From positions 62,001 through 126,000 of the forward strand of contig DATKUL010000003.1 of NCBI GenBank assembly GCA_035530615.1: 64,000 bases of DNA, written 5' to 3'. Positions 28,667 through 31,295 of this stretch are shown here, one piece after another. The position numbers were made by a program, and so were the translations under genes. Source of the DNA: Candidatus Paceibacterota bacterium (GTDB lineage Bacteria > Actinomycetota > Actinomycetes > Nanopelagicales > Nanopelagicaceae). The notes under the pieces were generated by a model. It ran no database searches. It had not been told where the DNA came from and saw only the letters and a program-made list of their open reading frames with translations. Positions within the stretch are counted from its first letter, which is position 1. Every line of letters begins with the position of its first letter.

Positions 28667-28682
28667 CCGTTGAACCGCGCCA

Positions 28683-28814
28683 GCCTCGATTTCCCAGTCG
28701 TATATGTGGCAAATTGAGGCTGGACGCCCCACCATCTACGCCAGCAGATTGTTCGAACTAATGCGGGAGACGGGTGTTCACTTGAAGGCAGAAATAGATC
28801 GGGATTCGGACTGA
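28683..28814 (+). pseudogene. hipB antitoxin remnant (5'-truncated)
   Basis: The frame reads ASISQSYMWQIEAGRPTIYA then SRLFELMRETGVHLKAEI, the recognition helix and C-terminal part of a HipB/Xre-like HTH antitoxin. The first part of the HTH is missing: pilO ends 17 bases before. The only ATG (28704) lies inside the recognition helix, so no functional repressor is encoded. Confidence 0.65.
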
Positions 28815-28817
28815 TTA

Positions 28818-29308
28818 ATGGCTGATCTCAGTGTTGAGTTATATGGTCATCCAATAGGTTGCCTTGTCAAAACAGGAACAGAGTCATTTGATTTCCGTAC
28901 GGACAGTACGACGTTTAAGAAATTTCAATTGGGGCGCGCGAATTCGATGTACTAACACTCTTGACCCATTTTGGTCGGGACGTCGCCGGGGCTGTACAAA
29001 TTTATGATCCATCCAAACCAGCCTACGACACGGTGCCGTTAACTCATCACCCGGATACAGACAAAAAGATGGCATTAGCGGTTAACGGAAAGTACTTCCA
29101 TGCTCAAATTACCGTGGCCGACATTGTTGCGGAAGCGGTTTCCTGGGGTCTGAAAGAATCTCGGAAAATCGTGAACGACACACTTGAAATTGTGCGTTCA
29201 GTCGCGGTGACTCAAAAGCCAGATTCACGTGCCTACAGAGACCTAGACACGGATATTGGCAGGTCCACCCAGAACCTTTTGGATGGCAAGCCCACGCTGG
29301 GTGCTTGA
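28818..29308 (+). pseudogene. hipA toxin kinase remnant (frameshifted, kinase core deleted)
   Basis: ATG 28818 opens MADLSVELYGHPIGCLVKTG and STTFKKFQLG, the HipA N-terminal domain, ending at TAA 28953-28955. A second frame from about 28940 continues EFDVLTLLTHFGRDVAGAVQ. It then jumps directly to YDTVPLTHHPDTDKKMALAV and later HipA C-terminal sequence (DIVAEAVSWGLKESRKIV), ending at 29308. The whole Ser/Thr kinase core with its catalytic Asp is gone, and at least one frameshift is present. A dead toxin gene. Confidence 0.7.
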
Positions 29309-29418
29309 ATGAAACGCCTTGGAAAAGCTCTTAGACAAAGATCGCGTAGATTTCGAGCGAATTTCTAGGAATCCCGCCCATCCAACAGATGTCCACTACT
29401 TGACCTTTGTACTGCTAG

Positions 29419-29448
29419 TGAGACCATTACAGATGAGACCATTACAGA
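29419..29448. repeat. Tandem 15-bp direct repeat
   Basis: TGAGACCATTACAGA occurs twice head to tail (29419-29433, 29434-29448) within the gene-free interval 29309-29722. No coding meaning is evident; probably a small duplication. Confidence 0.7.
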
Positions 29449-29506
29449 TGATGGTGTTCTAGAGCCGGGTTCGGCCGAAATCGCCAGAGGTAGGGGATCC
29501 GCTATA

Positions 29507-29545
29507 TTAGCAAAGTCTAAATTATGCTAAGTTAAACTTTGCTAA
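29507..29545. repeat. 39-bp palindromic element, copy 1
   Basis: TTAGCAAAGT (29507-29516) and ACTTTGCTAA (29536-29545) are perfect inverted arms around a 19-bp centre (CTAAATTATGCTAAGTTAA). It is identical at 38 of 39 positions to copy 2, which begins exactly 100 bp downstream. Lies in the promoter region of the DUF234-type ATPase. Confidence 0.85.
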
Positions 29546-29593
29546 TGATTTGTGGTTTTTACCTTCACTCTATTGCTCCCAATCTGATCTCTG

Positions 29594-29658
29594 ACAAGGG
29601 TTTATCTTAGCAAAGTCTAAACTATGCTAAGTTAAACTTTGCTAAAATAAACCCTTGT
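29594..29658. repeat. 39-bp palindromic element, copy 2, with extended 23-bp arms
   Basis: Copy 2 (29607-29645) sits inside a longer inverted repeat: ACAAGGGTTTAT then C then TTAGCAAAGT (29594-29616) pairs with 29636-29658 at 22 of 23 positions, with a 19-nt loop. The right edge is 64 bp before the ATPase ATG. It could be an operator, a hairpin in the leader, or the trace of a small mobile element. Confidence 0.85.
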
Positions 29659-29722
29659 GGGAAGTCGTCACAAACTGACTATCGGAAGTGAAGTCGGGAA
29701 GCCAAGAAACGGGGTCTGGGAA

Positions 29723-31180
29723 ATGTCGATAGAAATCTACAACTGGGAAGCTGAACCTCAGTTTCTTGGCAGGGTCTCTGTATTGAGGCGCCTTGAAGAT
29801 TGGTGGGATAGCGCCGATGTCCAACCATTTAACCTCTTTGGTCGCCGTCGAGTGGGAAAGAGTTGGTTGTTCCGTAAATTTGCTCACGGGAAGCCAGCCA
29901 TTGTCCTGGTAGCCGAGAACACCTTGCCCACCCTGCAGTTTTCGCGACTCGCTGACCAACTTGAGCCGCATATGGTTGCCAGACCAGACATAAGAGATAT
30001 CTCTACGCTGTTTCGAGTTATCTACGAGGTTGCTAAAAACGAAAAGACTCTCGTAGTTATCGACGAGTTTCCAAATCTGCTGGGCAATACAGATTCCGAT
30101 CGGCAGTCTGCGCTGTCTTCAATTCAGGCTGTGATGGAGAATTACCGGGACAAATCTCGGATCAAACTCATTCTTTGTGGGTCTGCAATTTCACAGATGG
30201 AAGCGTTGCAATCAGAAGATAGCCCACTTCATGGAAGGTTGCTGCCTCTGGAGTTGGTCCCGTTAACATTTGCAGAATCTAGGGACTACTTTGAGGGTAG
30301 CGACATCATCGACCACTTCACGCGGTATTCCATAACCGGTGGGATGCCACGATATCTCGCTCTGCTCGGAAAGGGCGACCTCGGACCTTTGTTGGCGGGT
30401 GCAATTGTGGACCCTAACGCACCCCTCTTCGGGGAAGTCCCCTCATTGCTCGCCGCAGAACTTAAAGAGACCTCTGTTTATTTCGCAATCCTTTCTGAGC
30501 TTGCTAATAATGCAAAGGATCGAGGTTCAATAGCCAACGCAATTGGAAAAGATGGTGGCGCACTGACACATTACTTTGACAAGCTTGAAGCTATGAGGTT
30601 GCTGAAGCGCAAACACCCAGTTGGAGCGGATCCGAGCGGAAGGGCAACCCAGTACGAATGTATTGATGGTTTTGTTCGTTTTTGGTTCAGATTCATAGCT
30701 CCATACTGTGCGGACCTTGAGGGTGGTGTCAACCCAGTTTCCTACGTGGACACATTTATTAAGCCAAATTTGGCAGACCACGCATCTGTTGAGTTTGAGC
30801 ATGTTTTTCAAAGATGGATAAGGCAGCAGTATCCATCAGCCCGACAAGTTAGTTGGTGGTGGGGTAACACAGCAAACGTTCACCGAGTTGCGAAAACCAG
30901 ATCAACGGAAGAGATTGACGCCGTTGGAATTGCGGCCAAGAAAGTGATTTTGGTGGGCGAAGCTAAATGGACAAATGGCCAACTTTCGCATGATGTCATC
31001 AACGACTTGATTCAATTCAAACTTCCCGCACTTACTGACGCCGGCTTTCGCTCGGCTGAGAGCTGCGAGATAGTGGTTACGAGCCGAGCGGGTTTCAGCC
31101 AAAGCGTAATGAAATCAGCCGAGGAGAACTCGCGTATTCGCCTCGTGGAGGCTCAAGACTTGCTTCGAGAAGTCGTGTAG
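29723..31180 (+). CDS. AAA ATPase with DUF234 C-terminal nuclease-like domain
   Basis: About 485 aa of the archaeal/bacterial DUF234 ATPase family. N-terminal FLGRVSVLRRLEDWW leads to Walker A LFGRRRVGKSWL, Walker B LVVIDEFPNLLG, sensor-1 LILCGSAISQME and a MPRYLALL motif, followed by a winged helix. The C-terminal DUF234 domain has the PD-(D/E)XK-like pattern TEEIDAVGIAAKKVILVGEAKW, with E, D and ExK in place. Cellular role unknown; possible defence or mobile-element functions are guesses. ATG 29723 is preferred over GTG 29657 since the family begins shortly before the GR motif. It is alone between a decayed toxin-antitoxin and a tRNA gene, and its promoter has twin palindromes. Confidence 0.85.
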   Translation: MSIEIYNWEAEPQFLGRVSVLRRLEDWWDSADVQPFNLFGRRRVGKSWLFRKFAHGKPAIVLVAENTLPTLQFSRLADQLEPHMVARPDIRDISTLFRVIYEVAKNEKTLVVIDEFPNLLGNTDSDRQSALSSIQAVMENYRDKSRIKLILCGSAISQMEALQSEDSPLHGRLLPLELVPLTFAESRDYFEGSDIIDHFTRYSITGGMPRYLALLGKGDLGPLLAGAIVDPNAPLFGEVPSLLAAELKETSVYFAILSELANNAKDRGSIANAIGKDGGALTHYFDKLEAMRLLKRKHPVGADPSGRATQYECIDGFVRFWFRFIAPYCADLEGGVNPVSYVDTFIKPNLADHASVEFEHVFQRWIRQQYPSARQVSWWWGNTANVHRVAKTRSTEEIDAVGIAAKKVILVGEAKWTNGQLSHDVINDLIQFKLPALTDAGFRSAESCEIVVTSRAGFSQSVMKSAEENSRIRLVEAQDLLREVV

Positions 31181-31221
31181 CTCTTCAGGAGAGGTGGCCC
31201 ATCTTTTCGGGGAAACCCCTT

Positions 31222-31295
31222 TGGAGCGGGCGACGGGAATCGAACCCGCGCTGTCAGCTTGGGAAGCTGACGTGATGCCATTTCACTACGCCCGC
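31222..31295 (-). tRNA. tRNA-Gly (CCC anticodon)
   Basis: On the minus strand GCGGGCG pairs with CGCCCGC as the acceptor stem, followed by T73 and an encoded CCA. D-arm GTG...CAC, anticodon arm TCAGC-TTCCCAA-GCTGA giving anticodon CCC, and T-arm around TTCGATT. All four arms fold. U73 is normal for bacterial tRNA-Gly. Its 3' end faces the accessory patch. Confidence 0.95.

Follow-up and report, generated by a model that had tools for sequence, protein, structure and literature searches.

Twin palindromes upstream of a DUF234 ATPase gene are probably the autoregulatory operator of that gene, bound, it appears, by the winged helix of its own product and repressing the gene of a candidate anti-phage nuclease. 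The site, described here for a 64,000-nucleotide stretch of DNA (the window) and for relatives of the gene, presents a model where the palindromes would be a duplicated, extended form of an array of dyad half-sites, repeating every 15 bp, that most genes of the family carry where transcription starts. Through its winged helix the ATPase would bind its own array as an oligomer, and the bound ATPase would repress its own promoter. Repression would keep the ATP-controlled PD-(D/E)XK nuclease, the candidate anti-phage effector, scarce until release or titration. We infer autoregulation as the simplest mechanism that uses all the observations.

The two elements, copy 1 (29507 to 29545, plus strand) and copy 2 (29607 to 29645, plus strand), are each 39 bp long, start 100 bp apart and agree at 38 of 39 positions, with a T/C mismatch at element position 16. 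Both contain perfect 10-bp arms, TTAGCAAAGT and ACTTTGCTAA, and in positions, spacing, near identity and arms they agree with the first-pass annotation. An intact ATPase gene follows. Arms paired in this way at a distance of 15 to 25 bp occur twice in the 64 kb, a count that none of 100 dinucleotide shuffles equals; the pair is far above chance expectation. The palindrome also holds dyad half-sites in a tandem array that repeats every 15 bp, a point that the annotation missed. Copy 1 consists of the 10-mers A (29507–29516, TTAGCAAAGT), B (29521–29530, ATTATGCTAA) and C (29536–29545, ACTTTGCTAA), and copy 2 of A (29607–29616), B (29621–29630, ACTATGCTAA) and C (29636–29645). In each 39-mer, A is inverted relative to B and C, and B and C are direct repeats 15 bp apart. 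The minus strand of each 39-mer spells out the 15-bp units TTAGCAAAGTTTAAC, TTAGCATAGTTTAGA and CTTTGCTAA, which score 13/16 in the best 16-base window at lag 15. Some 60 bp before copy 1, the 15-mer TGAGACCATTACAGA is present twice in a perfect tandem duplication (29419–29448) that also has a 15-bp period but no dyad, and its sequence is unrelated to the palindromes.

A promoter-like sequence, TCGCCA and TATATT separated by 16 bp (29481 to 29508, plus strand), places its −10 box directly against copy 1. This layout resembles that of Clostridia, where TATAAT is followed at once by the array, although by consensus the match is weak, with 0.5 expected by chance. An extended −10-like sequence, TGCTAAAAT (29640 to 29648, plus strand), was read by eye within the last arm of copy 2. 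Copy 2 also lies inside the larger inverted repeat that had been reported, which is confirmed at 29594 to 29658 (unstranded). Its 27-nt arms (29594–29620 and 29632–29658) are 93% complementary and stop 64 bp short of the start codon (ATG at 29723). Folded as RNA, positions 29590–29662 reach −35.3 kcal/mol (z −8.4), and transcription through the repeat from a promoter at copy 1 would give a transcript with a strong hairpin. The outer repeat was not seen at close homologous loci. The array also lies farther from the ATG than is normal for the family, copy 2 starting 116 bp upstream against a family median of 55 bp.

The surrounding DNA is an islet (28667 to 31221, plus strand) that is absent from a sister genome (G017), in which tRNA-Gly comes about 25 bp after the pilO stop. 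The islet contains a decayed hipBA-like pair, the palindromes and the ATPase gene, and no transposase, integrase or replication gene was found in it. The hipBA-like remnant (28674 to 29308, plus strand) comprises hipB at 28674–28811 and hipA at 28818–28952, continued in another frame from about 28943 to 29308; it was identified by eye, with weak profile support (HipA_C, E 0.18). The 3' end of a tRNA-Gly(CCC) gene (31222 to 31295, minus strand) adjoins the islet. A search of the islet's left edge for a copy of this 3' end found none, so site-specific integration is not established. The same genome has two further genes of the family: on a different contig (L027), directly upstream of an intact hipBA, a 54% paralog, and at C3:142080 a third, distant paralog. 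ATPase and hipBA-type genes are thus associated twice in the host genome, in the islet remnant and at L027. Directly upstream of hipB at L027 (8098–8250) there is an imperfect 21-bp inverted repeat, GGCTTATATTTAGTCC...GGACTAGATATAAGCC, which is likely the HipB operator.

The ATPase gene (29723 to 31180, plus strand) encodes 485 aa with both an ATPase_2 domain (PF01637, E 5.3e-13) and a DUF234 domain (PF03008, E 1e-11), each above the curated cut-off. The Walker A and B motifs, GRRR.GK (40–46) and LVV.DEFP (110–117), are intact and invariant in 38 proteins. An AlphaFold2 model (pLDDT 94.8) presents an ATPase core at residues 1–235, modelled as AAA/STAND-type, then a winged helix (238–313), further helices and a PD-(D/E)XK-like fold (375–454). 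The winged-helix domain (30434 to 30661, plus strand) lies within a region, 231–345, that matches profiles of MarR/ArsR repressors, among them MarR-type ZitR and ArsR-type SmtB. The ATPase part matches TnsC and 2qen in profile searches, along with a weak match to TniB, and a fold search with the model returns STAND proteins and DNA-bound Orc1/Cdc6 structures. The putative nuclease (30845 to 31084, plus strand) has the motif EEID...GEAKW. The model strands at 375–415 carry its residues D399 and E413, which are invariant, and K415.

The 39-mer itself is private to the host genome. With up to 3 mismatches allowed, the 2.16 Mb contain no further copy besides these two, and no exact or near-exact match occurs outside the host among relatives, IMG/VR and plasmids. 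The check for scattered, MITE-like copies proposed in the first-pass annotation thus found none. As to the other check proposed there, for the palindrome at orthologous loci, none of 149 other genomes contains the exact 39-mer, yet orthologs carry their own version of the array. This became visible only when upstream regions were compared by structure rather than by sequence.

Upstream regions of relatives at 80 loci show the design, and for a test across the family predicted start codons were anchored by profile HMM and duplicates were removed. A lag-15 repeat of at least 12/16 matches is present in 58.4% of 113 non-redundant family upstream regions and in 2.2% of 595 control regions upstream of other genes at the same loci, while any other lag from 8 to 30 reaches at most 3.5% (Mann-Whitney p 3e-34). 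The period was first noticed on the initial loci, and the sets fetched later therefore weigh most. Among Clostridia PF03008 matches, 55% have the array at lag 15 against 1% per other lag; among Thermococcales DUF234 genes, where the array extends across the start codon, 45% have it, against 0.2%. The sister DUF4143 ATPases, used as a negative control, show a lag-15 array in none of 26 cases. The family arrays are dyad-symmetric (0.674 versus 0.536 ± 0.008 in shuffles). A general repeat score pooled every spacing and therefore gave only a weak signal, the Streptomyces and Nocardia arrays emerged only after correct placement of start codons, and the Thermococcales signal was weak until 30 bp of coding sequence were included.

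The array is found in Actinobacteria, Clostridia, Treponema and Archaea, with the same design spelled in different letters between lineages and between paralogs. The Clostridia array, TATAATAATA then AAATCAGGATTTAGTAAATCAGGATTAG, comes directly after the −10 box and before the ribosome site. Streptomyces and Nocardia share AGGAGTATACTCCTAAGGAGTGTACTCCTAA, close actinobacterial orthologs have CTACTGTAGAGTAGGCTACTGTAGAGTAGG and ATTAGGCTAGTTACGATTAGGCTAATTACG, and the paralogs in the host genome have TAATCCAAACTAGTATAGTTCAAAC and ATGATACTATCATTAGTGATACTAT. The three family genes of the host genome thus carry three different arrays, each with a lag-15 score of 13. In Thermococcales, the arrays begin some 30 bp upstream of the gene and extend into its start codon, next to a TATA-like box. 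Roughly 40% of the family does not reach 12/16, and no 15-bp array was detected in clades L005–L009, L102, L192 and L202, an absence explained by loss, other spacing or misplaced starts.

What the family does not share is the doubling of the site. In 77 other genes with an array, the 600 bp upstream were searched for a second one and none was found, and the twin arrangement, the 100-bp spacing and the outer hairpin are a local elaboration, not a design rule of the family. The two-site operator with DNA looping that had been suggested is not supported as a family mechanism. Looping is not favoured at the locus either, since 100 bp correspond to about 9.5 helical turns and the copies face opposite sides of the DNA. 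The predicted link between operator and ATPase, on the other hand, is supported and now extends family-wide through the lag-15 arrays.

This link is close. A search with the Clostridia-type pattern (26 bp, up to 2 mismatches) finds a single place in each of 12 genomes, always the ATPase promoter. Two IMG/VR contigs carry the Clostridia array with the ATPase directly downstream in both; the Streptomyces-type pattern has no match in IMG/VR. The array also changes together with the protein, as similarity between arrays correlates with similarity between proteins (Mantel 0.66–0.71), most strongly for the recognition-helix region 262–292 (0.706). The partial correlation of this region is 0.257 given the ATPase domain and 0.346 given the nuclease. 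Its preference over the other domains is modest, and general co-inheritance may account for the tracking seen in these sequence comparisons. The sites lie at the gene's own promoter and are conserved in orthologs, and the gene product itself has a DNA-binding domain, seen as a winged helix in the model and in the MarR/ArsR profile matches.

Autorepressors with tandem operators include ParA/RepA of partition operons, MarR/ArsR repressors and autoregulated toxin-antitoxin systems. The DUF234 ATPase resembles them as a protein with a DNA-binding domain and dyad sites, presumably its targets, at its own promoter, and its winged helix is MarR/ArsR-like. The whole proteins are not homologous, however, and the DUF234 arrays keep a fixed 15-bp period in two domains of life with the presumed binder fused to a nuclease. 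The Walker-type ATPase PABY2304 of P. abyssi (2qen) and Orc1/Cdc6, which are among the best structural matches, likewise place a winged helix after an AAA ATPase. The 2qen chain, at 350 aa, is too short for the C-terminal nuclease part of the window protein, and Orc1/Cdc6 differ in being replication initiators.

The defence role is suggested by a match to the PADLOC profile PDLC04984 of PDC-S27 (E 1.9e-29 over 410 residues, 13–422), which belongs to a library without a curated cut-off. PDC-S27 is a class of phage-defence candidates, an ATPase fused to PD-(D/E)XK, with about 8,000 systems, 43% of them in Archaea; experimental validation of most PDCs is still pending, according to the account given there (PMC12988326). 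The window protein has the same architecture of ATPase and putative nuclease. The description of the class, as far as its text on PDC-S27 goes, includes neither a winged helix nor a cis operator array (PMC12988326), whereas the window locus has the array and, in the model, the winged helix. The Pfam entries PF01637 and PF03008 are annotated as 'unknown function' and assign no operator. A description of such an array at DUF234 ATPase genes was not found in the open-access literature, and the family-wide 15-bp array is a new result. DUF234 ATPases are numerous with no mechanism known, and a cognate array in Bacteria and Archaea provides an immediate handle: a candidate binding site, a guide both to the real start codons and to the specificity of paralogs, and a model of how a candidate defence system may be regulated. 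It is conceivable, if doubtful, that the array does more, and that an Orc1/STAND-like ATPase oligomer assembled on it holds the nuclease inactive, a self-tethering safety catch freed once an invader has titrated away or altered the complex. The promoter array would then be part of sensing in a defence family of Bacteria and Archaea, beyond a plain repressor site.

Points against autoregulation by the ATPase are the family members below the threshold and the clades lacking the array, the modest preference for the recognition helix and, at the window locus, the distance of the array from the ATG and the weak promoter beside copy 1. It also has to be weighed against other readers of the array. 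Promoter operators generally have a regulator of their own, and with a hipBA remnant in the islet and the 54% paralog beside intact hipBA, a HipB-type repressor is conceivable at one locus. A separate host regulator is nonetheless unlikely, as the array spans Actinobacteria, Clostridia, Treponema and Archaea with no common neighbouring regulator noticed, hipBA adjoins only one of the related loci searched, and the array sequence follows that of the ATPase, so that paralogs of a single cell have different arrays. With one array per genome, no regulon is seen, and the scattered-regulon reading is not supported. An operator of HipBA itself was rejected: the elements are found between the hipA remnant and the ATPase gene, not directly upstream of hipB, and hipBA is not close by at the other related loci that were searched.

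Rather improbable is a docking or loading site of the Orc1/Cdc6 or TnsC kind, at which the ATPase would act on DNA in a process such as replication, silencing or mobility and control the promoter only secondarily. The fold likeness to Orc1/Cdc6–DNA complexes and TnsC, the weak TniB match, the iteron-like tandem arrays and the location of the gene in an islet beside a tRNA gene speak for it. The arrays, however, sit at the transcription start region, whether 55 bp upstream in the median, after the −10 box of Clostridia or at the start codon of Thermococcales, one per gene, and the window islet has no transposase, integrase or replication gene. Being neither paired at element ends nor scattered, they also give no support to the recombination or replication sites proposed earlier, and a transposon-end reading is not supported. 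The folding energy of copy 2 with its outer arms and the Clostridia arrays between −10 box and ribosome site would suit an element that works at the RNA level, with a hairpin in the 5'-UTR controlling attenuation or processing. This is very unlikely, since none of the other loci examined showed the outer arms, part of the Thermococcales array beside the TATA-like box is probably untranscribed, and the conserved trait, dyads in direct repeat every 15 bp, is one that DNA-binding sites typically have. A functionless MITE, REP-like repeat or decayed mobile-element end, suggested by a palindromic, intergenic element next to a pseudogene, is barely credible given two copies in the whole genome, where a dispersed repeat has many, and a period conserved family-wide at the same place.

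Some relatives depart from the common design. L187, L178 and L005–L009 lack the 15-bp array, some have inverted repeats of other spacing, and they are possibly clades with a different operator geometry. Upstream of the DUF234 ATPase at L163, a 39-bp palindrome, TTTAGTCAAGTGCGATTTGCATAATCGTACTTGACTAAA, lies just upstream of the promoter and resembles the window form rather than the tandem array; L174 has a related stretch, and both score low at lag 15. Among relatives of a Thermococcus genome (L203–L231), a genome of 2 Mb can have as many as 14 DUF234 ATPase genes, and the arrays often cross the start codon, which suggests leaderless mRNAs.
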